A DNA stretch of 64,000 nt. Source: Membranipora membranacea (taxonomy: Eukaryota > Bryozoa > Gymnolaemata > Cheilostomatida > Membraniporidae). Shown here piece after piece: positions 1-63,800 of this stretch. A program made the position numbers and the translations under genes. Location of the stretch: contig OU612066.1 of assembly GCA_914767715.1 (NCBI GenBank), forward strand, positions 26,882,283 to 26,946,282, written 5' to 3'. Each line of letters starts with the position of its first letter. Positions within the stretch are counted from its first letter, which is position 1. The notes beneath the pieces were generated by a model. The model was given only the letters and a program-made list of their open reading frames with translations. It ran no database searches and was not told the DNA's origin.

Positions 1-42
1 AAATCATTATATAGGCTTGTGAGGCTTTGACTTTATTTTCAG

Positions 43-811
43 ATCATACTGGATGGAGACAAGTATGAGGTATATGATCCAAATGAGGTGAGTTGAATGG
101 GCATCGATTTGGCAATTCAAATGAAGTTGCCCGTTTTTAATTTGAATGTCATTTATTAGGTTGCCATGATGATAAAACTTCAAAATGTTCAACTGCGGTT
201 GAAAATTGAACCTGAGCCTCCAATGCCACAGCCTACGATGTTAACAGCTCAGCCACACGCATCGGAGACCAAAACCAAATGATGGAACATGCACCAAAAT
301 TAACGAAGGTTTAACTCGATAACTCTTGTATAATTGATGTGAAATCGATACATGGGGATTTTTAGGTGTTTGTGATTTTCCTATAACCTTGCTATAGGGA
401 TCTTTAAAATAATTTGAGAATCATTTGTGGGTTACAATTCGCCTTAAACGCAGAATCATGATGAAGATAAAATCTTTTAGCTGTATATTCTAAAATATAT
501 TCATTTCATGATTACAACAGTTCCCACCATCCAAGTGTTTTAGCTGTATATTATAAAATATACTTATTTCATGATTACAACAGATCCCACATCCGTATCA
601 CCAACTCATTTATATTTATTATCAGCTCACCCTTGCGGAGATCCTGATCGCTGAAATAGAGCATGGAGACAATGATGATGATGATGACGACCCGACAGTA
701 CGTGTAAACAAAGGAGATATTGTTGTAGCAGGTGGCATTATCGGTGCCCTTGTTGTCATAATCATCATAATAATCTTTGTAATCATAATCTTTGTGAAGA
801 GAAATAGATAA
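43..811 (+). CDS. CLCA-like protein, last exons (partial gene)
   Basis: Seen: exon 43-87 reads IILDGDKYEVYDPNE and ends at a GTGAG donor. Exon 626-811 follows an ATCAG acceptor in phase 0. It gives an acidic linker (six Asp in a row), a hydrophobic segment of about 25 residues rich in Ile and Val, and a short basic tail KRNR before TAA. This is a type I membrane anchor. The two exons match the last two exons of the minus-strand CLCA-like gene at 3897-22705 in length, phase and sequence (IILDGESYEMYNPNE there), which identifies this as the end of a paralog. Everything upstream is off the left edge. An alternative last exon is possible at 160-282: it follows a TTATTAG acceptor in phase 0, encodes 40 residues with no membrane segment and ends in TGA. 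That isoform would lack the anchor; it is inference only. Confidence 0.75.
475..593. repeat. Two-copy tandem repeat, about 60 bp
   Basis: Two adjacent copies of about 60 bp, each running from TTTTAGCTGTATATT to GATTACAACAG, lie in the last intron of the left CLCA-like gene. They differ by a few substitutions. No function is apparent. Confidence 0.8.
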
Positions 812-3482
812 TTTCCTACATAAGCACGATTGTAGTTTTATCTAACATTTAAAGGTTGTTCATGATAAGGTTCTTCTTGATTTATATAACTTATTAGTTC
901 TACAATGTAGGAAGTTGGTACATTTTTGGCTAACAACATTATTATTAGAAATATATTTGCATCAAAACATTTAAAAACATAAACAATAATGATTTATTGT
1001 TGATAATGGTATTGGCAGCACACTGACTTTTTTCTAATCCTTACTGGCAGGCACTTTTACTGGTACCTTTTTCGTAGACTACTAGAAATTTAAAAATTAT
1101 ATATATTTAACCACTCAGGTCATACTTTAAATTAAGTGATTTTATCAGAAACTGTTTGACACCGATGTGAAACATGATTACACAATATTGCCATATGCAA
1201 CTTTTCTTTCCATCCCTGTTATTTTTGTGAAATTGATTAGTTAGTTTTGGTTGGGTCTTCACATGCTATAGAAAGGTCTTAAGAAAATAAGACAATCTAT
1301 AATATAAGATCAATCCCTTTTTTGTTACAAAGAGTAATTGAATATTCAAAATAATTTTTTTTATCTTTTCATAAGTTTTTTTTTATAATTTTTTCAATGT
1401 TGTTTCAACCAATTTTTGCTCTTTCTATTTTGGCTATAAATTTCCATGAATAAAGAAAAATTCTTCACTGTCCACCCGTCATCAGGATAAATTAATGTAT
1501 CTGAACATGAGATTATTTCATCATGAAAAATAAATGATAATGATGCCAACTTTTTGATTGGACTTGAAATGCTACTATGACTACCATTATTAAAAGCCAG
1601 ATTCCCTGCATCTTCCATCAGCATTCAGTGGAAAGTTTCATCAAATATTTCAAAGATTTCAACAATAAGGTTAGGCCCAAAATAGTTTATTTCTTTTTGT
1701 ATCAGTAAAGGGTTTGGGGTTATGAGTAAGAACAATTATTATTTATTACAACTGGGCAATATCAATATGATATTTATTTTAATAAACTATGCAAGTCTCA
1801 GTGAAAAGCTCTACACACATGGTGTTGCAAGTTAAATGTTGGTATGTGAATAAGGTCACTAACTAACAGAAACTAAGCTGAAGGTAGCTAATAATTTAAG
1901 ACCAGCCGTGAAGCCAAACAACAAAAAGATTAAGATGATTAAAACCGGCAGTGTTAACCACAACGGCAGAACATTGCTCAATATCATAACAAGCCTAGCA
2001 TTTGAGACAATTTCATCAAATTCGACATCAGCTTAGACATATATATTACAACGTGTACATTCTGAGTAGAGGGTACAGTAACTGTCTGTAAATTTTAACT
2101 TCGAACTACAGAAAATTACTATTATTGTGTATATACCCAACTATCTAGCCGCAATCTAACGTTCTGCATAAGCTTTCTGGTGCGAAATATACCACAGTGT
2201 TTTAAGCTGCCGAGGGCATCCTATATTAGGTTTATTTCAAGCTCGTTCACACCTTTACAATAAAGGCAATCTTTGTGATTAGCTATCTCATATATTCTCA
2301 CAAAACTATCAATATCATTCCTTGTGAATTATGTGTATTGCTTGGAATTATGGGGTAATTGGTGTGGAGGGTTTGAGGTGAGAAATGTGGATGAATGGTG
2401 AAGGTGCTAAGGCCTAAGCCTGTACATACAAGATGGACCCAACTGACTTATTTTCAATTCGGCTTTCTTTTACAAACCCGACAGTAGTAATGCAGTGACA
2501 TGAGTGTATTTAACTTTATTTGATAATTTTGACACTGACATATCACAGTTTTGTTATGCTAGAATCTGCGAGTCCTTACATTTGGTAATGGCTACTGGCA
2601 CATTGCATTATGTATCACAAGTGTACACTACTAAACCCACATATACCTTACTCCTAGCAAGCAGGAACTCCCTTTGCTTTTGTTGCTGATATCTTATGAT
2701 ACATTTCGGCTTTATCCTCAGTTGTCATGAGAAGCATTCCCTTCTTAACATTTATTCCCATTTGTTTTTTATCCAAACCAATGATGCTTTGAGGAGCCAG
2801 TATGAAGCATCCCATATTTGACGTTGCATACTTAACAGACTGGGTGGGGGATGAGGTTAAAAACTTTTCATGAAATATTTAATTGTAAACTCAAATTCAG
2901 GCACTGGTTCCTCATCGCCTTGGTTCGATTCTTGGCTCTTAACCCACTCAGCTATGCTATGCCATCCCTGGAATTGGCGAATTTTTTCAGATGCTTCTCA
3001 CGACTATTGCGTTTTTTGAAGTTTTCAAGGGTTTTGCAGGTTGAAAATCTGCTCCGACATTGGTGGAGCAAAGTTTGTTCCCTATTCATTGATGCTTTGC
3101 TCATTGTTAATTCTCTCAGCATTTTGTGATAACTGAGTGGGCCTCAATTGCTGTTATGGGGTATATATGAGAGAAGATTTCAGGTAGAGAGAAGTCTTCT
3201 TTCTTGCCTAAAGACATAATATTGGCTATCAAAGATGGTTAAACAGATATAATTACATTTAAATTTCCAGTGGTTCTATGACATAAATATAAATAAAAAA
3301 GTAAAAGTATATTGGCATGAAAAAATACACAGTTTGTTGCCAATAACAAAAACAAAAATTCATAAAAAAATTCATAATTATGTTTGGTAAATGTTTGGAT
3401 TATATCAATGAATAACAATGGGGCACAAATACATACACAACAGTTATAAAAAAACTAATATAATAACATGTCTTAAAGCCAT
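812..3482. other. Convergent intergenic region, no gene seen
   Basis: AT-rich sequence between the 3' ends of two tail-to-tail CLCA-like genes. Several open frames of 60 to 90 codons occur but have no splice context, motif or family resemblance. No RNA gene was recognised. Confidence 0.5.
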
Positions 3483-3838
3483 AGTTACGCCTCCCCATAT
3501 TTGGTATCATATTGAAGGTCTCCGTCTAATTAAGAGGATCGTGGCAACCTTTTGATAACCTATGGATACAGTTGAAACCATAAGCTTTACTAAAATGAAA
3601 ATTTTTTTCAACTTTTCCTAACCACTAAGGTTGTCCCCCTCCTAATCTTTATAAGGTATAGTGGATAAAGAGGGGACAACCTCAGTTGTTGAGAAAGATA
3701 GAGAACGACTTTTCATTCCAGTAAAGCTTACGGTTTCAACTGTGTCTGTGAGCAATTTGAGAGGTTGTCATGGTGCTCTTATTAAGACTGAGACCTTCAA
3801 TATGATACCAAATATGGGGAGGAGCAACTGTAGATTTA
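3483..3838. mobile_element. Foldback (inverted-repeat) element
   Basis: An imperfect inverted repeat of about 355 bp. The left arm contains CTCCCCATATTTGGTATCAT and the right arm its reverse complement. The central arms AGGTTGTCCCC and GGGGACAACCT meet near 3655. This structure is typical of a MITE or foldback element. The small open frame over the right arm (3661-3882) is not regarded as a gene. Ends and target duplication were not resolved. Confidence 0.7.
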
Positions 3839-3896
3839 AAGATCAAAGTTTTGCCTTATCATGTGAGTTAATTTCAGAATGATGTTATGTAGGAAA

Positions 3897-6800
3897 TTAT
3901 TTATATCTCTTTACAAGGAATACAAACAACCCAACTACGGCGACAAGGAAAAGTGCACCAGAATGCTTCCTGCTATAATGAAATATACGCGCACTTTTGG
4001 GTCATTAGCATCACTTGTTGGAGTTTGTATGGCATTGTCTCTGTTCTCCATCTCAACGATCAGGCTCTCAGCGAGGGTGAGCTGATAAGAAAATATTAAT
4101 CATATTGATGATAGTGATTGTGGTAATGATAAAAAAATATAGTATTCTAATAATTATGTTATGCCATTTAATCAATACCATTTCCTTTTAACCATCAATT
4201 GCTTTTGAAATAAGCTTTGAGAACGAGCAGAAAAACTTTTAAGTTTTATTGTTCTGTTTATGAGACCCATCACCTATGAAAACCAACACCCTAAACATGG
4301 CTCCTTAGCAGTGCACATTATTAGTTGCATCATTCAATTGATCCAAATAAACTCACCTCATTAGGATTGTACATTTCATAGCTTTCTCCATCCAGTATGA
4401 TCTGAAATAGAAAGTCCAGATTTTACACAGACATCAGGCTCATGATCCTCCATCACAATTATCCAACATGCCCTTACTGTGATAGTTTCAGATGGTGGCA
4501 TATTCAGTTACATTTCGTCAGGAACAGTTGGAATTGAAAAGTATCAAATATCAAATTCTTCAAATTGAACCAGGGCCATCACTGAAAACGCACATGAAAA
4601 TGACCTAACAATCTAAGATTCAATGTGCATTGATTGGAAATCCAAGCCAGGGTTCTGCATGATGTGTGGTCAGTCGGACTGCAATATCATTATCAGTGTT
4701 AGGTCAACCAAAATTACGAACGGAAACAAAAGTAGCTTCCAAATATTCATAGAAAATTCAACTATCAGGTATCCAATTAAAAGGAATGTCAGTGCACAGG
4801 CCTACCAGCTTTTCAATGCATTGTGCTTTGATTTCTAAGAGACAATGGGTTCAAATAAAGATAGAAACATTTGACGTTGACAAATACCCATATTCTGATT
4901 GGTTAATATATTCATTAATTACAGTTCAGGCGCTATTAGTACCAATGTTTGTTGATGACATAAATCTGTAAAGCCTATGATTGAATTGACATAGAAATGC
5001 ATAAGAATAGATGATTGAAGAATCTGAATGATCATTATTTACTGGCTGTGACCACTTACTGGTTTCTCAAAATCTTCTGGTTTTAAGAAGGAAGCAGAGA
5101 CAATGTTAGACCAGGCAGCACCATTTTTCTCTGCATCAAACGCTCGGAGCCTGATATAATATACAATATCTATCTGGCTTTGTGTAGAGGTTTGGCTGTT
5201 TCCATCATCAATAGACCGCTTTGATCTGCTGTTGATTATCTTGGCCAGTTCAGCTGAGGAAAAATTATTTCTTATTAATGAAAGCAGGAATGTTGCTTAG
5301 GAAGAATGTAATTGTATTATAGCCAACATTGATATAATGCATTAATATGTGTGATTCTGACAAACTGAAAATTTTGCCTTCTCTTGTTGCCAAACATCAA
5401 TGAGTTGGTCGACCTATTTTGCCTCAGGACAGGAGATTCTTTTTAACAGAATATTGACAATGCTTCTGTTTGAGAATACAGCAAATTTAACATAACATAT
5501 ACATGAGTCGGCTCCTATCAATCAATTATCAATGTAGCTAACATCAAAATACATATTCTATGAATAGCCATTAATATAATTAAATATTATGAACAAATAC
5601 TTATATGAGGGACTTATTATTGCTTACTTGCATTGATTTTCATCTGGACCGGTTCTCCAGCTTCCCTCTCCAACTCACTTGAGTTTGTCCAAACAATGTG
5701 ATTAGGTTGCAGGGATGTGCTATTCAGTAAGGAGTTCGGATCAGTATGTGCTGCAAGCTCATATCCTGTGGCTAGTACGACAGAAAAAAAACTGCAGATA
5801 GCTTGTGGATTAAAAGTTTACAACAAGACTTAAAATAATTGGTTGCTAAAACCAGGTGCGACATGGGTGAAGCTTATCATTCAGCTCAATTCTTTTTGAT
5901 ATATAATGATTGCCCTTTGAACTCATCCATTCAGGTTAACTGGTTGTTATTTACCTCATTTATGAGGCCAATGATTCTGATGACCAGGAACATCAATAGC
6001 AAACCAACCTGTACCCTGGCCAGGGTTATCTCCTGCTGCTGTCCAGCCAATAGTAAAAGTATCTGATCCATCGACAGCAGTCAGAAGTGTCAAATCGCGA
6101 ACAGGCTCTGGGGGCATTTGATCTCTCAATATCCTCCTCCAGTTTGTCAAATAAATAAGCCCACCTATAAAATTATATAAATGTTTCATTGTTTTATTTT
6201 AGTAGAACTTTCAAGATTACATAAACAAAGATCATTTATGCTCTACTTAGTCAAAAAGGTTTTAGCCATAAACAGATGTTCAACTAAGGAACAGCTCACC
6301 ATAAATTACATGCTGTTGGTCTATGTGCAAATTTCTGGAGCTTTGGGATAATGGGCGGATAAATAAACTTCTTATTTCCAGCTTTTACTTGTAACTACAG
6401 TGTATATACCTCCATAGAAAAGAAGTGACAACAAAGAACATTAGTTAAGGTTGTTTCAAAAACTTCCACTGCGCGTTTGTCACAACTAGAATACCCTTAG
6501 GAATCCAAGGCAATGTAGAGTCAAAAGGCAAAAACCAACACACAAGAAAATCATAGCCTTTGAGAAATTGTTGATGAAAGGTATGACACCTTGATATCAT
6601 TCCAAGAAATGCTGCAGTATAATAAATGAAGGGAGCTTATTGGTTTACTACATGTTTTACTGTAAGCTACTCTGACCTTCAAGGTTTCTTGTTATTGAAG
6701 GAAGTGGTAGTCCTTCGTTTCTTGCACAAAATGTTCTTTCTCTGACATTCCTCAAGAAAGGATAGCCACCTACATCTACCTGGAAGTACGCAATATTTAC

Positions 6801-9800
6801 GCAAATTTGTACATTCATTAGGTTTGGCCTTAAAATGCTATTTTATTTCTCAGGTTAAGACCTTAAAGAATATAAAAAGATTATGTGATTTTGCTCTTTG
6901 CCAGGCATAACTAATGTAACTACATAAGAATTCCATGATGAGAATATCCTGAACCCACTCTAAACCCTCGAAACCAATAGCATTAAAAGTTGTCTGCACA
7001 ACAAACTGATAACTCTGATTCCAAATAGAAAGGTGTATGGGTAGAAATGCTGTTATTAGCCGGATTGATTTCAATAAGAAAATCATAATGGAACTTGGGC
7101 TTAGTTTGGATAATATAGTCTGCCAACACAAACGATGTAATATTAGGATATAAGTCTACACCATTGACATAATAATAAACCTAGACAGGACACCATATAC
7201 AGCTGAAGTGAGGCACTTAATTGTGGGCGGCCTAGCGACATTAGAAGGTGTAGAAGTAATGATGCTATCATTGATTACAGTCCACAATCTAGGTTTTTTG
7301 TTCATAACTCAATTTATTTTGATCGAATTTTCAATTTGAAAATTGCTTTACAGTCAGCAGCAAATTCGGACAGTAAAATTGGGATCCTTGTAGATCAATT
7401 TGCTCCTTTCAAAACACATCGTTCACAGCAAAAGAGTGATCTTTGCTGGTCATGTCCAGTAGCTACACAGCTTGTTAAATTAAAAAGACAGGCTTTTCAA
7501 AAATTTGCTGACAGTGATTACGATAAGTCCTCAGTTGCTTGGGAAAATTATCGTGTTTTGCGTAATCAAGCTGCAAATGCAGTGCGAGATGCAATAAAGC
7601 AAGTTACAAAAGCTGTCCTTGGTGATAATTCGATTTATCAATGGCAAAAAATCAAGATTTTTCAGGATAGTATCCCCCAAGGTAACAACACAATAAAAGA
7701 AATGGATTTTAACGGTTCAAAAACAACATCTAACTCTGAAATAGCAACTGGTCTGAACAATTTTTTCTCAACTATGGGTATAGAGTTAAACGAGCAGGCA
7801 GAGTCATCAGCAATTTTGACAGATACTGTTCCAACTGAAATCCTAAATTTTAACCACAACAGAATTGCCTTTCAAGAGACAGATAATTCTGAAGTATCCA
7901 ATACATTAAATTCCCTAAAATCAAGGAAAACCGGAGGTTTGTCACAAATACCAGCTTTTATATACAACGTTTTAGAACCCTTAATTCTTAATCCATTGAC
8001 TCATATTTTTAATCTTAGCCTAAAGACCAATCAATTCCCAAGTATTTGGAAAAAAGCTCTGGTGATTCCAATTTTCAAAAGTGGTAAAACAACTTCTCCT
8101 AATAATTACAGGCCAATTTCATTGCTGCCAATACTCAGCAAAGTTTTGGAAAAAATAATGATGCCCAAATGCCTGAATACTTAGACTCTCATGACCTGAT
8201 AGCTTTCAGACAATTTGGTTTTCGTAAAGGCACATCAACTGATCAGATACTTTTACAATTTGTCAACAAAATCAGACATAAGCTTTCCAAACCTGATTCC
8301 CATTCTGTCACGCTTGCTGCACTAGACATAAAGAAAGCATTTGATTGTGTTAATCATGAGTTACTGACCAAAAAATTATCTTCCAAGTTTCACTTTGAAA
8401 ATGGTGCTTGCGCTTTCATCAAAGATTATCTGTCTAATAGGGTGCAAGCTATGAAAGTGAATGGGCACATCTCGGACTGTTGTATGATTAGAACAGGGGT
8501 GCCACAAGGTTCTGCTTTGGGCCCATTATTATTTATAATGGGCCCAATGATTTGATGAGTCTTCAAAACTGCTACCTCTTTGCTTATGATTGCTTGTTGG
8601 TTACTGGGGGTAATAATCCCTTAAAATCTACTCGAGCAATGGAAATTACTATGGTTCAAGCCTCTGAATGGTACAATTCTAATTGTCTAGTGTTAAATAG
8701 TGCCAAAGCTGATGTAATAACAATATCAGTGTGCCTGCGGCTGTGCCTGCGGCTGTGCCTGCGGCTGTGCCTGCGGCTGTGCCTGCGGCTGTGCCTGCGG
8801 CTGTGCCTGCGGCTGTGCCTGCGGCTGTGCCTGCGGCTGTGCCTGCGGCTGTGCCTGCGGCTGTGCCTGCGGCTGTGCCTGCGGCTGTGCCTGCGGCTGT
8901 GCCTGCGGCTGTGCCTGCGGCTGTGCCTGCGGCTGTGCCTGCGGCTGTGCCTGCGGCTGTGCCTGCGGCTGTGCCTGCGGCTGTGCCTGCGGCTGTGCCT
9001 GCGGCTGTGCCTGCGGCTGTGCCTGCGGCTGTGCCTGCGGCTGTGCCTGCGGCTGTGCCTGCGGCTGTGCCTGCGGCTGTGCCTGCGGCTGTGCCTGCGG
9101 CTGTGCCTGCGGCTGTGCCTGCGGCTGTGCCTGCGGCTGTGCCTGCGGCTGTGCCTGCGGCTGTGCCTGCGGCTGTGCTTGCGGCCTGGGTACGTTGCCT
9201 TTGGGGTGGTGTAATTGCTATGTGTTTGTAGCACTGACCTGATTGGTCGCATGGTGGTGATAATTGGTTTGCTTGCCTTGGTGTGGGGTCTATTGTTTGC
9301 ACTCCTGCATTGCCCTTCAGTGTGGATTTGGTTATCTATTAATTTGCATATCACTTCAGTTATACTATAATTGAATTTTCCTTAATTTTACCTGTGATTT
9401 ATTGAGTCATAGGAGTTGATGAGAGCCTTCTGGATCACTGAGGTGAGATCTTGTATTACATTATTGTTTTCATGCTTATTGATGTTCGCATTACTGATAT
9501 TATTGATGTCAGATTTTTTGTTGTCAATGATTTGATGTCAGCATCATTGTCATTGGTATTTATGCCATTTATCAGAACTGAACTTATGCAATGTTTTTTC
9601 TCTTCTTTCAGTTTTACAACACGTATCGTTATAATATAACACATCAAACCGTAACTCAACCCAGAAACCTGGTTCCACACACCCCTATAACAACCACAAA
9701 ACAATTATACAACAAACATACGCTGCCCTGCAGCTACAATCAGTTAACGATGATATCTCCATTCCCGATTTGAATTTTAAAAACATGACTTTTAAACAAA

Positions 9801-12800
9801 CCGAAGAAATAAAATACTTATGAGTTGTGTTGGACAACAAATTGAATTTTAAAAGTCACATAAAGAAAGTAAAACAGAAATTATACCCTATTATCACAAA
9901 TTTTTAGCATAACAGAAAATTTTTATCTCCCCACTGGCTCGCCTATGGTATACTGGTCTTATTCGATGTCATCTGGAATATTGTGCATCTTTAATGCACT
10001 CCATGAACGACCAAATAAAAAAAAAGAATTTCAGAAAATTGAGAATCGCTGCCTCAAAATAATTGATTTTAACCAAGCAAAAGATGAGACAAGGCATCTA
10101 TACAGTATCCCTAAATTTTTAACTCGTTTTGAATACCTTTATCTTTTAAGGTTTTACCAACTTGTCAATTCTCAGGTGCCAATCATTGATAGAGAACTTT
10201 TACCTAAAAAATTGACTAGCGAAACTCGTCCCTCTAAAAGCGAAGTATTACAATTATCAAAGGACAAATTTAGATTTGCCATCGCCAATTTTGGTGCCAA
10301 ACAATTCAATTCATTACCTCACCACAGTAAGCTGTGCTCAACAGTTATTATGTTTAAATCTGCCATAAAGAGCCACCTTCTTCATTGTTAGTTCTCTAAA
10401 TTTCTTTCCAATATTTTATTTTTATTGCTTATTATTTGACATATATCTGCTTAATGTTTTTCTTTGATGACTTGCTAACTGATAAAAAGTATTTTGTGTA
10501 TTAATAATGAACTTTTTCTTAAACTTCTTAGTAAATTTTACAGTTAATAATTCTTATGCTTGCCTTTTAATTAATTTTTGCCTAATATATTTAAAATCCG
10601 CGATTTCTCACATGTATGTTTATTTGTTTCTGGATAAAAGTCCCTGACTTAATCTGCACCAGAATAAAAATGGAAAATATATTGTGTTAACAACTCAATT
10701 TCTTTCTTCTTCGAAAATTGTTTTTGTCTAAATTTTGTAACAAACTGTTCAGGACAAGCTGATTAATCTATTGTAATAACTCAAAATCCGATCATAATTG
10801 ACCAATTTATCTACAAAAAAGCGTTCGGTTTGTCGACATTAAATCAATGATAGCCTCATTGCTTCTACACCTTCAAATGCTGTCACGTTGCCCACATTAA
10901 ATGCCACAGTGCCTCAATGTTTGTGCTCCATATAGTGTCCTGTCTAGGTTATTATTAAGACTATGGTCTAGTCAATTGACTGGTCTAGATTAGCTCTGAT
11001 TGGAGCAATTCAAGCCAAACACATTTGCAAAGTTAGAGATAGTTCAGCACCCAAATACAAGTGTTGATGATGGAAAATTAGAGGACACATGTGGGGGCGT
11101 AATAGGTGACCAAACAGGTCTTTCCACTTTAAATACTCACTTTCCAACTGTAATAACCGTCTCCATTGAATTGATCGGCATTTAAGTATCCACTATATAC
11201 ACCATCACAAGCCACAGAATCAGCTCCTGGTTATAACAGAACAAACAAAAGAGAGTGTAGTACATTTCAGAATAATTAAGAAAAGTTTGTTGTTAATTCA
11301 GTTGTGTTACGGTCCTCAACAATTCAAAGATTATAGACAGCTAATTTGAGATCTAATTTTACACACTCGGTAGCTGTATGAGCTGTCAGATGGAAATATT
11401 GATGCAATATACTTAAAAATAATTGAGAATTGGTCACTTATCATGTAATGCACAAGGACATCATCCGATGGTGGTTGTTGCAATAAAAATGTATACATGT
11501 ATATATATATATTCAGGGAAATAGCTATCCAATGTGAAGGCTCTGGTTGGCTTGTGGGAGGGAGAAGTGAGAAAACACGGACAGACAGAAAGTACCTTTT
11601 GATATAATGGGAAATGTGAAAGTAAATCAGTTTAGTTTACACTTTATCCCAATAGGTACCTGCAGTGACCTTGCATTGGCCCTCTTTCACCCAACAGACA
11701 ATCAGATCAGAGCCAAAACATTGGCTAGAAAACAGCGTGCAAAGTCTTCAGTAATCACATTAATTTCAGCAATCTAATTTGCATGATTCATCAATATCAA
11801 AATCAATAATACCAGATAATTGCACCCAGAACATACCCGTCCCGTTGTCGTTCATTTTTATTATCACCTGCTCATCATTGAAAGGAAGACTGACTGTGGT
11901 AAGTACTTCCAAACCAGACACTGGTGCAACTCCTTTGAGGACTGTTGCAAAGAACTTGACCTACGACATTGAATATAATCTTAGTATAAAAACGGTAATT
12001 GTGATCGATCACGATTAGGAGAAGTTAAATGCATCAGCATTCAATAGTGAGTGTTATTTTCCGTTTAATGTTTGTTGCATATATATGCGCAAGAGTGATA
12101 CAGTTGAGCAGACTTAAGATTAAATAGTTATGTATTTTAGAACACAATAAAATAAAAGAATAAATTAAAGAGCATCCTCAAAAATCACAATTTAGATGTT
12201 TTCAATTATTGACAGCTTCCTTACTAACCTGAGTGAGCTCATCGAAAGGAATATTCTGTTTGTCAGATTTGGCATCAATTACAATTGGATCCTGTCCTTT
12301 GACAGGGGTTGATGTAATAGTCACTGCTATACTCTGAGTTGTTGACGGATCTAAGCTGGTAATATTGTACTTTACCTCACCTGACTAAAGCACAAAATCA
12401 AGTATTTCAATAATTCCTGATAATTGTTGTATTACATTATATGTATACGCCAAAATTAAAGAGTTGTTGACGTTTTCCAGCCCACAAGAGCTGTATGCTA
12501 AAACAATGATCAATTCGATTCAAATGTGTAACAAGAAGATAGAGAATTTGTTTGGCGACTCAGGAAGGGATTATAAACATTGACTTGGAAACTTACAACT
12601 GTTCCGTTTATGTCTGCAATAACCCTGTTATTGGAAGGCTGGTCTGTGACATCAATATCAGCTGATTTGTCCTCTGCCATTACTTCTACTTGGATTGCGA
12701 CGGTATAAGTGAAGGACAGACGAGTGTTTGTAATGCTGGTGTCAAGGTGAACACTATGAATCTGAGATGGCTCATCCTGACTGAGTGCCACAAGTTGGTT

Positions 12801-54800: not shown

Positions 54801-57800
54801 CATTTGGACCTGGGTCCAAGACCCTCTATATTCCTGAACATTTTGATCGTCATCCTATCTATTAGAATATCACAATGCGTATGACGCGTTGTGACATCCC
54901 ACAAGGTGTGCCCGTTGATTCCCAACGCCATTTGAAGGTGATCACCTTGAAGGTTTGAGATACCATAACTTCCTCAATACTTGGATTCTTAAGCTGGAAA
55001 TTGCTCTAATGATAGAATAAAATATGGAGAATAAGATGTGATACAAAATAGCAGCCTCAAAGTAAGTCTTTAACCACATTACGATATAGCTTTGGTCACT
55101 CAAAGTCCATGATTTAATCTAGATATCAGGTACACCATGTCTTATGGCCATATGTTGCATGTTATATTAAGGGCTCAATTTGATACATGCTAGATTTTGT
55201 GGCATGCCATTAACATTATACAGAAAATGAGTGTCTGGTAATGGAATGCCACATAATCTCAGTTGCAGTCGTCTGTGACATTAATCTAAGTGCGGACCAT
55301 AGACATGATTGTAATCCCAGACTGGACACCATACATAGCTGAAGTGAGTGAGTGACGTTACGACTTTGGATTGCGTAGTAGCAAGGATGCTATCATTGAT
55401 TGAAAACCTTGGGTCTAAGTGCAGAGGGGTTGAAGCTTTTTTACATTAGCAATGTACGTTCATTAACTTGTTATGCTGCCCCTGCCTGGTATACTGTTTT
55501 ATCTGATTTTAATAAGCAACGCCTTGAAAGCATACAAAGATATGCAACTAGAATAATTTTACCTGAGTTTAACTACGAAGAAAGGCTTGAATCACTAGAT
55601 ATCCAACTACTCAATGACTTTTTGTTTCATCTAGCCTCAGCCCATTTTAGTAAGATTTTACACAATGCAACCCATCCACATCACTATCGAATTGTTTTAA
55701 ACACTAGCCAACGAACATCCTCTCGCGCATCATATCCATATTTGCCTAAGAGATGTCGCACAACGAAGCAGCAAAACAGCTTTTTTCAATTTTTCATGTC
55801 ATTTTATAACCACAGATTTGTGTATGTAGAGTGATATTTTTAGTCTCATCAAAACTCTAATTTTTTTTTGCAAACATTCAATTTTTATCTTCGCCATGAT
55901 AACAGAATGTAGAATAAACAATTGCAATTACAATTACGATTTGCAGTTAGATCAAGATTGATCCAATTTGCCCGCATGCCGGTTGCTACACGTTCAAACT
56001 CAAAGTTACGCTTTGACTGCTTGATGTGTCAAACTAGTCTACTTGTTGAGCAAAGACTTGCTGTTGTGGTGCAACGTTTTTCTTAATTAGATAACTCCCT
56101 TTCAACTGGATTATACCAACGCAAAGAAACTGGGAGTTACCCGCTCTCTGAGGTTTAGTTCAGAGAGTTGGCAACTTCCTTTACACTTGAATGATAGGGA
56201 AGAGATTATTTGCCATACCATTCAGCCATAAATACCTAGCTACACATCAAAATTCTTTTGTATCATGATTGTATATTCCATGTTTCACTCGGACTAACTT
56301 TGTTTTGGTATAATACTGTTTGGTTTTGAAGTTTATGATTTTTGTTTGGCAATTCTAAATCCTCCAAAATTCGGTAGGGTTCTTGTGCTGAAATACTGCT
56401 AATGGGGAAGTCCATAAATATGTGGATATATAAAGGCATATCATACTCTTAAATGTCTACAATCTTTGGAAAAGAAATTGTCCAGATATCTGTGGCTCTA
56501 TCCTCAATAAGGCTCATCTTCTTTCGAGAAACAACGAAGAAAAGGTGGGTAAGCCTTGCTCAGGATAGTAGGAGTTCTCACAATTGCTGACATTCCTTTT
56601 AAATTGTAGTCACCAAGGATTGATATATAAAAATGTATACTCACATAACAGGAATAAGTATTGTCTTCTCATGAACTTGGTATGAAAATAGGAAGAATCC
56701 AAGGGATGAAATCACCTGACAAAGTAACAAAAAGAAATACATCAACACAATGTGTCACAGAGTTGTGACATTGACCAAACTTTGCATGACAAGTAGTCTA
56801 AGTGCTCAGACTCCAAGGCGCAGGGAGTTACTTGCGCAAGCTATCAAACTCCTCTCCCCTTCTCCGTCTGAGCAAAAACCTATGATCTCAACAGACTCAC
56901 AATTCAGAGTTGCCTCCTCAATTTCACAAAATCATCAAGAAGCACAACTCTGAAAATTAAAAATAGCCTTAGGCACATAACTTGCAGAAAACTGAAGTTG
57001 TAGAACTTAGGTTATTTTTTAGTGCACTCAACCGTGCAAAGATTATGATTGCTGTATGGATCACAGTTATACAAGACAGTAACATACTCTTTGATAACAT
57101 ACACATCACAGAGTAAGGATATACAGAGGTAGCTTCGATGATAGTAAAAGTGTCTGTGGTTTTTGATTCAGTGGGGGAAAATTGTGCACAGCTGGATGCC
57201 ACAATCTCATTATCTCTATGTGTTATAGTGTCATTTTTCTCGCAGACATCCCTACCTTTGATGGGCCATAATTCAGTCTGTATTTATCCTAAAGACCATA
57301 TTATTGTCATTTTTTGCAAAGATACATAGGCTAAGAGCTATCTGCATTTGTAAAATGAGTTTTATCATATAGATTTACGTGTGACAATTGATAAACTTCT
57401 GGTTATCAAAATTAGGAAATGTCCGTGTATTGACCCAAGCCACATGTAAGTCTATATGATATATTAACTCATTTTAAAAAACACAGATAGCTCATAGCCG
57501 ATGTATCCAAGCAAAAAATGACAACAATATGGTGTATAGCTTGAAGGTTGGACATTCCAACAATGTTGAAAATCAGTATTTAGGATTAATACAGAATGAA
57601 TTATGGCCCATCAAAGGTAGGGATGTCTGCAAGAAAAATGACACTATAACACATAGAGATAATGAGTTTTTGGCATCCAGCTGTGCACAATTTTCCCCAG
57701 TGAAAAAAAAACCACAGGCACTATAACTATCATTGAATTGAAGTGTCCCCTCTGTATATCTTTACTCTGTGATACACATGGATTTGGCTATAGCATTCAT

Positions 57801-60800
57801 AGACTTAATATAATATAGTATATCAAGTCTATGATAGCATTGGCTATCATATCTCTATCCTTTACTGCATCCACTCAGTGAAACAGCTTGTTATTTATCA
57901 CGGCCATATTTCTACATCAAATGTTTACAGCTTTCAAGCTGTAATATGTATGTACGGTTTAAAATTTAGTTGATTTGTATTTATCATCTACATTTGGAGT
58001 CTGCATAAATTTGATAAATGTGACTTCTTTGCATTGAATTTTGTTTTGTAAAATTTGTGCAAAAAGAGTTGAAGTTTTAGAACACATATCGATCTACCTC
58101 TCTAATTCTGATGACCCCAGATATGCTTGCTTCATAAATAAAGGAAATATATTGCAAACATGCACATTGTCATACATGTACATCAGCCAGTTTTGATATA
58201 TGACAATATGTGAGTTTGTGTAGCACAGCCTATAACCTGATAGCTCTATTGTGAAGTATTCAAATGGTAGTCCAAAACAAGGGCAAATGACTTATAAATA
58301 TTAAGAAGCGCAGTATGTCCAGTAGTCAAAATAGGCGTATGCACAAACAAGGCCGAGTACCAAATAAAAGTAAATGTTCAGAGTAAAGTCTTTCTTGAGA
58401 CAGTAATAAAAAACATGGAGAATATGGCCCTGGAATGGTATGTATATACCTGACCTGGTAATATAAATCATAGTCTAAGTGCTCAGTCTCCAAGGTGCAG
58501 GGAGTTTGTGGCGCCACTAACTCCCTGCACCTTGTAGTCTGAGCACTTAGACCATATAAATCAATGTTCTGAGCAAGGGCACTCGAGACAATATAACACA
58601 GAGAAAACGACCCTGGATTGATCTACATTCACATGACTTAGTAATACAAATGAATTTCTGAGTAAGGGCACTCGAGACAATAACTTAACACAGAGGATAG
58701 GGCCCTGGATTGATACCACCTTGGTATGCATCTACATGACTGAGTAATATAAATCAATGTTCTTAGTAAGGGCACTTGATACTAAACACCCTCTGAACTG
58801 GAGCAGCTGATATCTCCAAATGATGCTACTGATAACGAGTCACTAAAACTGTCTGTGAATGAGCTATCATAAGACTACTATCTGGGTTTTTACATGGCAT
58901 GAGATATCAGGGTCACAAACATCACAGCAAGCCTGTTGCTCGGAAGGTTTGTCACAACCAAAATCAGCAAGCAAACATTCACGAAGGCAAGACTTTCCTT
59001 GTGCATAGCTCTTCATGGTCTGATATAATTTATGTCCATTTGCCATTCTAGGATATGTTAATATAAAAGAATGTGCAACAACTTCGCACTCCCTAGAAGC
59101 GCAACCAGATTCCTGGAGAAACGCACCAGCAGTGGTGGGAACACCGTAATGAATGACATATTCAATGTTTCTCAAATTGAGCCCCATTGATAGACTGCTA
59201 GAACAGAGAGATACTTTAACATGACCAGATGAATTGCCAAGGTCAGCCAATATTCTTGACTCGATGTTGCAGTCTGCTATCAAGTGGTACATAACCACTC
59301 TGGCGGTGGTAGAACCTACAGGTTGATGCGTGTTAAGTGTGATGTACTGGTAAGCATCCACTAAGGTGTTGATGTTTGTGAAGAATATCATCATTCTAGG
59401 AAGGTCTAGTGGTCTAGAATTAATCAGCTCACACAACCATTTAAAATCTGCAAGAATGTTCCCTGTAACTCTCACTGTGTGATAGCTACAAATGAAACAA
59501 AAAATCTAAAATGAATAAGACATAACTTGTATTTTTTTTATGAAAATGAAGCTGAATTGAGACGTTGACAACCGCAAGGTTGACTCCATCACCAGCAGAA
59601 CTGAACTGTCACTGGGCTCAGAGTAACTGCAAGTGTTGGTCAATGTCAGCACTTAGAAATTGAACAGGAAAGCATTGCGACACACTGGGAATAGTCTAAG
59701 AGCTCAAACTCCAAGGCGCAGGGAGTTACCTGCGCCAGCTATCAAACTCCTCTGTTTGTTAGTTTGATAGATGGCACAGGTAACTCCCTGCGCCTTGGAG
59801 TCTGAGCAGATATTAACATCCACGTGTGGAACTAGCTAGATGCTCCCGAATTTGAGCATTAAAAATTATACACACTTAAAATAATATGACTTACATTATA
59901 TTCTTCTTGTTGATAGAAACTTTGAAAATAGTGGCACAATGTTTAGTGATGTCTTGACATAGTCTATGGTATCATCAGAGGCAGTGGCTGACATACACAC
60001 GAAAGGCACACTCCTCAGAAAGGAGTGCAAGCTGTTGAGTCTGCCATATGCACTCCGAAATGCGTCGTCCCTTCCTTTCTCAGCACCCCTAAAATAGCAT
60101 GAAATATGAATGTAAGCACATGTCTTTATTTACTTGGAGTGTCTGGCTAGGGGAAAGTACTATTGGTATTGAAATTTAATCCAAGTGCTGTATATTTAAA
60201 ATGGTCCCAGTAATATTAGTTTTCCACTTTAAACCGGATGAAATGTCATCAGTTGCCTATGTATGGTTTTTCTCAGCTCCATTGACCCCCATAGCTGCCA
60301 TCATCAACATTTACATTTGAGAGATTATATTGAATATGGGGATAGGAGTTTGATAGCCTGGTGCCACTAACTCCCTCCGCCTTGGAGACTGAGCACTTGA
60401 CTAGGCCTGATAATTGTCAGTTATTATGATTTATTTATGGCCCTTCGTTTTTTCTTCTCAATTTACAAAATCTAAATATGTCAATATTTCAATGCCTCTT
60501 ATAACTGGCTTCTGTCTGGATTTTCATTATTTTCACTCCGGAAGCAGAAGGAGGTCATATAGATTTGTTTATTTACGATCTATCATGGGCATAATATTTG
60601 AATACCGCATGATGAGAAAGAATAACTACCATTACTCAACGATATGGAATTCGTCGATGAACAGAGTCTTCACATTCAAACCCTCCGGTAACGCCTTTTT
60701 CCCACTGCAATCGAGAATACTCTTCGGGCTAGTAAATATGAACACCGCAGCCCTACACATAAGTAGTGGCGGCAGAGAGATGAATTGCCGAGAGCTTGGG

Positions 60801-63800
60801 TAGATTCTTAATCATTGACACCATTGGCATTACAATTGGGAATTGGGATGGGGCATTCTGGAAAAAAAATAGACAATTCAATCTTGTTGGATGTTTGCTA
60901 GAAAATATGACATGTTTGGATCACAAGATTAAGTGAACAATATCCAACCAAAAATTCAAATGCTTTAAATGCTTATCAACAAAATATGCGAGGGTGGCCA
61001 AGGGTCTAAATTTTATTTCTGGTTTCAAAACCTCGGGCCCGTCGGGCTGTGAAGGTTCAAACTAGTGTCATCACTGTAATATAGGAGGCCACAGTATCTC
61101 AACCCAACAGTTTTAATATTAACCTATCACTTCGATTTGAATCATCAACAGCTGACAAGAATCTGAGCCCTAGCAAGTAAACATGCCTATGTTCAGACTA
61201 AATTAATACCTTATTCAGACATTGAAAATGAGACATAGAAAAATGCCTCCACCCTGCAATCAAAGATGACTAAAATAAAATATTTGGAATTTATTCATCT
61301 TTTAGTCCTTTGTTATCATTAAAATGATGCATCCTGAGCAGAAAATGGCAATGAAATGGTGCTGCTACAAAATCAGTTTTGGTGTAAAGTTTAAAGTAAT
61401 GAACCTCTGAACCAAAAGTATTGAAGGAGTTTGTCATCTAGAACAAAGTATTAATTTGGTGTGGCCTAACCTTAGCCTAACGCACCTTGACTAAACCATT
61501 ATAACCATAACTAACCTTCTGAACAGTTGAGCTTGACGCATAAGTCAATCTCCTCACACATGAGCCCACATAATCCTATGAAACAAAAATGGTGGTTCAA
61601 ATCAAGATCAATACGGATAACAACTATTTGAACAAGGTGTCTACAATCAAATACACCAAAAAGTATGATGTCGACAATCCCAAAATTTTGAGCACTGAGG
61701 TGAGGCTGTTGTGGGACTTGGATAGAAATGAAATGATGATGTAGTCCATCTCACTTGCATATGTATAGTATGCTAGAGTACAAATTCTACACTAAGTCAA
61801 AGCTATGTTATTCTGGGAGCAATGGAATGGATCGTATCTAGATAGAAGAGATGATAGTGTTAGTAAGCTAGGTGCCAAGGCACCAAGAATTCAACATATG
61901 TAGACTATTGTATGTATTGGATGAGCGAGAGAGACTAAAAAAACTAAAAATAAATATGTTATTCATTGTTTTGTTAACATTCAGGGAAAGTTGGTTCTTG
62001 TCACTTACCTCCTTGTTTGATTGTGCCTGCTGGGGTTTGTACAACTCAGTATCATGGTCATACAGGAAGGGTGCTGCTAAGCTAAGTATAGGAGAGATTT
62101 CCCAAAACCGGTTGGAGCAATGAATATGGTATCTTTTTGTTCAACAAAATATGAATTGATAGCCTGTCTGTAACTGTTCTTGTTTTACTCACTGATATGT
62201 TTAAGTTTGTTTGAATAATGTCACTTATTTCAGACTTATCCATCTTCCTTGATATCATTATATTACTGATCAGATTTTCCATATAGAGGAGATCAGTGAG
62301 TGTAAAACAACAAAATTAATAAAGGTAAAATGACCCTATAATCAAGGAGTTGCTATAATAATTGTTACAGTTAAATTGTTCCTGTCCTCACTGAATTCTT
62401 GGCCAGAAAGTGGGCCCAGTTGATGTAAATAAGAAAAGGTCAAGGTTGCCATGTGTGTAAATACTGGATTGTCCCCCTTGACTATGTGCAATAGGAGGAG
62501 CTGTCACAAAATGGGAGTTATCTTCCCTCAGCAGCTTTAAACCTCAATAACTGCTTTTCCTTGATCTTCCGCAAAAAGAGAGTAATTCCATGTTGTTCAG
62601 AGGGGACAAATCTCTATGAACATATGCAAGTTTTATTGGGGAAGATCAAAGTTTAAGAGTTGTCATTGATTACAATGCAAATTGCTCTGAACAAAGAGAA
62701 GACAATCCCATCATATCCCCAGGTTTTTGCTCAGACGGAGAAGGGGAGAGGAGTTTGATAGCTTGCGCAAGTAACTCCCTGCGCCTTGGAGTCTGAGCAC
62801 TTAGACTACATGACAAGAAACGTTTGCGCACCAGTTATATGATGAGCAAAGCATCATTGAGGATTGAAGTGATCACAGACTACAAAGTACCAGCTTGGCT
62901 GGTCTGACAGCACCTAACTTGTTTCGCTGCTATTCGACCAACCAAGAGCGGTAGCTATTACATTTGAAACAGCTGTTAATTCCATATATAGTTAATTCAT
63001 TGAAACAAAACAAGTGTAAAGCCTAGAAAACCTTGACATGCTTTTTGTGCTGGTGGAACGGGGGAATAATGATTGTCAACTCTTGCTTTGAATCTGTCGA
63101 GTAAAGAGTTGTGCCTAAAAAACCTGGTTTTCTTACAAAGGTTTATGTGTTAGTGGTTACATTCTGTGTTACTAGATTCATGATAGGATTTATCACATTT
63201 CGTAACAGGCAAGCAAAATCAAACATGGAAACATGTATGAACCAAGTTTTTTCCTTTTTTCTTGACAGCTTAAAAGAAGACTCTGGCACCTTCTCCGGAC
63301 CTCATCATCAATTAAAGCTTGTCTAGGCAGGCTATTTATTCACAGCCACTTATTGAGGGTATTGATACACCTAAGAGCAATTTGATCGCAATCACAACAC
63401 ACCACAGCGGGCTGGTGTACTATTTTGCCTGTCTTGAGATTGAACACACAGCGCACTCAAACTAACTGAACTTTCTAACTCACCAATGAGTATTTGAAAT
63501 GCTTCATAGTAGGATTGAGTATCAGTTTTATAGATGAAGGCACGACAGAAGCAAGTGTTGTAATGGCGCTAAAAAAAAAGAGGAAATATCACATTGGAGT
63601 TTTCGGGACTTTAAAGTAAAAGAGAATAGCTGCATGCAATTTACAAAGACAGAAAAAATTGTTGACAAATTGATTTGTTTCTATCACCAGCACACATGTG
63701 CTGCACAAATAGGACGCAAAATTCCTATGTATGATATTACGAGTATAGTAGAAGAAACCGCAACTTCAAAGCAGCACCATAGATGTACATTTATCACTGA

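Follow-up and report, generated by a model that had tools for sequence, protein, structure and literature searches.

Kolobok transposons duplicate TTAA at their target. AcademH transposons are said, in the title of a 2020 report by Kojima, to come from animals and fungi. AcademH elements generate target-site duplications (TSDs) of 9 or 10 bp and encode a helicase, AcademX elements generate TSDs of 3 or 4 bp, and the difference is seemingly tied to the encoded helicase or nuclease (PMC10045372); RecQ helicases also occur in fungal KolobokH and in a rhodophyte Kolobok element, where the gene lies on the complementary strand (PMC9587614). Here, we analyzed 64,000 nucleotides of the genome of the bryozoan Membranipora membranacea (C2:26882283-26946282, hereafter the window), in which an insert at 56794-62808, bounded by long terminal inverted repeats (TIRs), carries a broken RecQ-like helicase gene inside an intron of an ALG6/ALG8-family gene. 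An earlier note on this DNA had read the insert as a Mutator-like element (MULE) with a helicase as cargo, or Pack-MULE. In our reading it is very likely a non-autonomous derivative of an AcademH-type cut-and-paste transposon that encodes a RecQ-like helicase and, as its presumed transposase, a DUF6589 protein; the likeness to AcademH is judged from the printed description of that group, by helicase and TSD length.

The insertion itself is sharply defined. The left and right TIRs agree at every one of their 88 positions, and the 9-bp sequence CATGACAAG stands on both sides without a mismatch (9/9). The insertion point is intronic, with the acceptor of exon 56715-56645 following 78 bp downstream, and the host gene, which matches Pfam PF03155 (Alg6_Alg8), is assigned to the ALG6/ALG8 family and not to one of its members. 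In the 339-Mb assembly searched (18 contigs), C2 holds this gene in triplicate, as segmental copies near 26.72, 26.95 and 27.15 Mb, with the insert in the 26.95-Mb copy alone. In both other paralogs the site is empty, with CATGACAAG present once, and the joined window flanks align to them gaplessly, at 593/600 and 589/600 positions. The element entered the intron of one of three segmental copies and duplicated 9 bp in doing so; an assembly artefact or a chance TSD is ruled out by these two empty sites and by the 9-bp TSDs found across the family. What the earlier note had said of the ends, the flanking duplication and the intronic position is borne out, with its ALG6 widened to ALG6/ALG8. An additional PF03155 locus lies on C11 at 14.58 Mb.

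Inside the insert, the C-terminal helicase exon (minus strand) matches Helicase_C in Pfam (E=1.1e-6) and RecQ_Zn_bind at E=2.4e-4, below Pfam's cut-off. Its PDB sequence matches are 1oyw (ATP-dependent DNA helicase) and 4tmu (RecQ), and eight public-data proteins share 51-67% identity with the C-terminal half of the protein. The remaining exons were recognized by eye and by their match to a related element, and the motif names are likewise given by eye. A DUF6589 profile built from nine relatives gave no match in the insert, and no other transposase reading frame was seen there from reading frames and Pfam. RecQ-type exons and the lack of a visible transposase, both noticed before from the letters alone, are thus confirmed.

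The TIR, which starts with TAGTCTAAG in this family, marks a large set of relatives: its first 25 bases occur with at most two mismatches at 731 sites in the genome (nested ones included), compared with 0 for a backward control. We examined ten long copies with both TIRs, the window element included. In nine the 9-bp TSD is perfect, and in the tenth its two sides agree at 8 of 9 positions; tblastn (E<=1e-5) found the C-terminal helicase exon in all ten, the motif II exon in nine and the motif I exon in seven. Other TIR-bounded copies exist, as a search suggested in the earlier note was meant to reveal, and each of the ten long ones carries RecQ-like gene sequence. The profile of nine DUF6589 relatives matched none of the ten; applied to a copy on C4 described below, the same profile found six pieces. 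Six of the ten paired copies represent one insertion spread by segmental duplication, which leaves five independent events, or six with the C4 copy. Many independent insertions on C7 are ruled out: nine copies there (six paired, three one-ended) share their target and flanks, with flank identities of 96-99.8% (left flank compared in nine, right flank in six). The region concerned, at about 21.6-25.0 Mb of C7 (L010, L011, L013, L016-L019, L022-L024), holds at least nine segmental copies of this insertion, a local amplification on one chromosome.

Copies with little beyond the TIRs also bear TSDs. Of thirteen short copies fetched, nearly pure TIR-TIR palindromes, 12 have both ends (114-267 bp). 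The 9-bp TSD is perfect in 11, one lacks a TSD and one yielded no right end. Near-perfect palindromes of about 140 bp swarm genome-wide (L028-L038, for example), and L029 and L030 are identical in sequence at different genome places, which suggests recent activity. Two one-ended copies, L025 and L026, resemble the family over their first 290-395 bases only, and neither a helicase match nor a far end was found in the stretches fetched. Other mobile elements, recognized by eye within or next to family copies, are a Copia-type element within a 13-kb C7 copy (L014-L015), a reverse transcriptase gene in L023 and a Harbinger-like reading frame in L021.

The link to DUF6589 comes from the copy on C4 (27834027-27846197), a 12,171-bp element with a perfect 9-bp TSD, CTGTATGTT, whose TIRs match that of the window element at 88/88 positions at one end and, the other end being trimmed to the first 64 bases, at 64/64. 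It encodes a RecQ-like helicase and a DUF6589 protein on opposite strands, converging tail to tail. Joined with X, its transposase pieces match PF20231 at E=7.9e-17 and none of the named transposase families. The window element aligns to about positions 1-5200 of this copy, at 88.6% in the main block, and to its transposase half not at all except in TIR-like stretches. Between the 3' ends of helicase and transposase the C4 element has a 55-bp tandem repeat of about 14 copies (element positions 3964-4732). A stretch on C8 is 97-99% identical to C4 bases 64-9882, counted from the transposase end, and holds DUF6589 pieces together with the helicase C-terminal exon in two overlapping matches; we left it out of the count of complete copies with a window-family TIR.

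The same pairing recurs outside the family. Two related elements of about 10 kb, on C7 and C6, are 98.9% identical to each other over 9.5 kb, and their genes for DUF6589 and a RecQ-like helicase lie on opposite strands, arranged tail to tail as in the C4 copy. Their termini are TAGACTAAA and TAGACTGAA, compared with TAGTCTAAG in the window family, and their TSDs measure 10 bp (C7, assuming symmetrical ends) and 9 bp (C6). Their helicase is 35.6% identical to that of the window element over 202 columns (E=3.6e-35). At a third DUF6589 locus, L044, an adjacent helicase piece and the window-family helicase, as read from the C4 copy, share 37% identity across 129 residues. More multi-copy DUF6589 families are present in the genome (L049, L050, L051, L054 and others).

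Compared across transposon copies and families, the helicase is most likely a standard resident part of its own transposon family and not a captured host gene, because it accompanies DUF6589 in more than one family. The earlier note had offered residence in a new element family as its fallback. The C4 copy and the related DUF6589-helicase family favor the resident part of that idea; the family is probably not categorically new, since the published AcademH description already fits a helicase with TSDs of 9-10 bp. In the window, the gene is probably a decaying passenger under little constraint: compared with the C4 copy, changes visible by eye disrupt the reading frame of its motif I, motif Ia/II and C-terminal regions, and its replacement and synonymous differences follow the pattern of an unconstrained gene. 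For the C-terminal exon (540 columns; window, L009, L012 and the 13-kb C7 copy, with the C7 cluster excluded), the ratio of replacement to synonymous rates (dN/dS), obtained by simple counting, is 1.15-2.0 in the five of six transposase-less pairs where it was computable, each pair having 0-2 synonymous and 2-8 replacement differences, small counts on which the estimate rests. Pairs that include the C4 copy give 0.36-0.40 (4/4), and the C4 and C8 transposases give 0.38 for seven of eight pieces.

By the traits printed for AcademH, TSDs of 9 or 10 bp are found in nine of the ten paired long copies, in 11 of 13 short palindromes, in the C4 copy and in the related pair, and an element-encoded helicase in the window, C4, C8 (C-terminal part seen) and the related element. 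The window family thus resembles AcademH, as described in print, in both; the window copy departs from it in lacking a transposase, which is why we file it as non-autonomous, and in its broken helicase. Several observations weigh against this assignment, in addition to the small dN/dS counts. DUF6589 is presumed by us to be the Academ transposase of aspartate-aspartate-glutamate (DDE) type, in part from D, D and E boxes that look conserved by eye in the DUF6589 proteins; a fold prediction for one of them, P0009, from nine sequences gave a poor model (mean predicted local distance difference test score, pLDDT, 55.9), Foldseek with this poor model returned no PDB match at E<=0.001, and our literature searches on DUF6589 found no mention of it. 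The C4 copy is the only one with DUF6589 between two family TIRs and a TSD. On the transposase side it keeps only 64 bp of TIR, the gene begins shortly after, and the transposase read straight through meets a stop before the MEHEN box, possibly an intron edge, so that this most complete copy seen may itself be defective. No family TIR stands beside the C8 transposase: about 9.3 kb separate it from the closest one, and the intervening sequence includes an apparent nested element with 24-bp inverted repeats about 5.2 kb apart, and the window-like end there spans about 315 bp. Finally, a genome-wide PF20231 search gave 19 DUF6589 matches, with neither the C4 nor the C8 copy among them.

A Pack-MULE, that is, a Mutator-like element that captured a fragment of a host RecQ gene and was moved in trans by a MULE transposase, would share with the window element its long TIRs, 9-bp TSD, intron-bearing gene and lack of a transposase, as non-autonomous MULEs with gene sequence do, and the genome does hold 32 matches to the MULE domain (PF10551), a point against our assignment. 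An 88-bp TIR with a 9-bp TSD is not diagnostic of a MULE, however, because AcademH shares the TSD length. The ten TIR-paired long copies all carry one and the same helicase and not different genes, the family's own gene as it appears; none of the 32 MULE matches overlaps the copies examined; and a related DUF6589 family has a homologous helicase in the same position. We rejected the MULE and Pack-MULE readings once the C4 copy, with the same TIR, showed DUF6589 and a helicase and no MULE match, and we regard the original claim as largely refuted and a Pack-MULE origin as very improbable. A Kolobok transposon with an accessory RecQ helicase, similar to KolobokH, is scarcely credible either. It would likewise place a RecQ helicase beside the transposase of a DNA transposon, and the complementary-strand RecQ of the rhodophyte element resembles the convergent layout seen here. 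This candidate was rejected on its TSD, the window-family TSDs being 9 bp and varied in sequence, not the TTAA of Kolobok; moreover, the Pfam match of the transposase pieces is to DUF6589 and not to any named transposase family, and no Kolobok transposase was found in the window family.

A last alternative accepts the DUF6589-RecQ pairing and disputes its placement: these elements could form a separate superfamily that is AcademH-like in TSD length and helicase only. In its favor, the AcademH likeness is drawn from a printed description; on the other side, both traits printed for AcademH, the helicase and the 9-10-bp TSDs, are present. We consider this separation distinctly unlikely. The related proposal that a DUF6589 protein and a RecQ-like helicase, tail to tail between TIRs with 9-10-bp duplications, define a superfamily of their own is also unlikely; if it were true, the helicase would open palindromic ends, fitting the swarm of near-perfect TIR-TIR palindromes of about 140 bp.

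Under the AcademH-type reading, with ends defined by the TIRs and a 9-bp duplication, a DUF6589 protein from a more complete copy would act in trans, binding the TIRs and inserting the element with a 9-bp stagger, and its conserved D, D and E boxes would form the active site. The family helicase may aid strand separation or opening, or gap processing and repair, and could be the reason for the long duplication. We infer this scheme, DUF6589 in trans with helicase assistance, from sequence comparison. With no transposase gene and a broken helicase, the arrival of the window element, or of its recent ancestor, depended on other copies.

Other features of the window element are listed in the table with the ends and helicase regions. 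Most of its left kilobase is taken up by a long inverted repeat that is unmatched in the C4 copy. Elsewhere in the window, reading frames at 7207-10391 resemble a non-long-terminal-repeat (non-LTR) reverse transcriptase by eye, with no Pfam match for 7207-8184; a long tandem repeat breaks into them at about 8700-9214.

Table. Features of the insertion and its host exon, in window coordinates
Position	Strand	Feature	Basis
56645..56715	-	ALG6/ALG8-family host exon VISSLGFFLFSYQVHEKTILIPVM	PF03155 match; bounds from splice sites
56785..56793	.	Left TSD CATGACAAG	Sequence; one copy at the empty site of two paralogs
56794..56881	+	Left 88-bp TIR	88/88 match with right TIR
57105..57773	.	Long inverted repeat; 95% complementarity between arms 57174-57296 and 57576-57698, with further arms outside	
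58462..58563	.	Miniature TIR-TIR copy, nested (58471-58554) and flanked by a perfect 9-bp TSD of its own, TATAAATCA	Read from sequence
58785..59505	-	C-terminal exon region of the helicase: Helicase_C, RecQ zinc-binding, serine-rich tail; compared with C4 copy, frame broken near end	
59692..59808	.	Nested TIR-TIR palindrome, one end truncated, between helicase exons	
59899..60129	-	Helicase exon region; motif III read by eye as SATA	
60338..60403	.	Lone TIR-like remnant, flanked by helicase exons	
60635..60857	-	Helicase exon region; motifs Ia and II (DEFH) read by eye; frameshifted compared with C4 copy	
62080..62315	-	Helicase 5' exon region, motif I (APTGFGKS) near 62180-62080; short insertions break frame relative to C4 copy	
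62721..62808	-	Right 88-bp TIR	88/88 match with left TIR
62809..62817	.	Right TSD CATGACAAG	Sequence; empty site in paralogs

On these results the claim of a Pack-MULE in an animal falls, the helicase being part of the transposon itself. One TIR is common to a transposase-bearing copy, to helicase-only derivatives and to 140-bp palindromes, and empty sites are at hand for one insertion, making this a clean system in which to ask what role the helicase plays in transposition and whether the short palindromes need it. For the Pfam family DUF6589, our findings suggest a role as a transposase.

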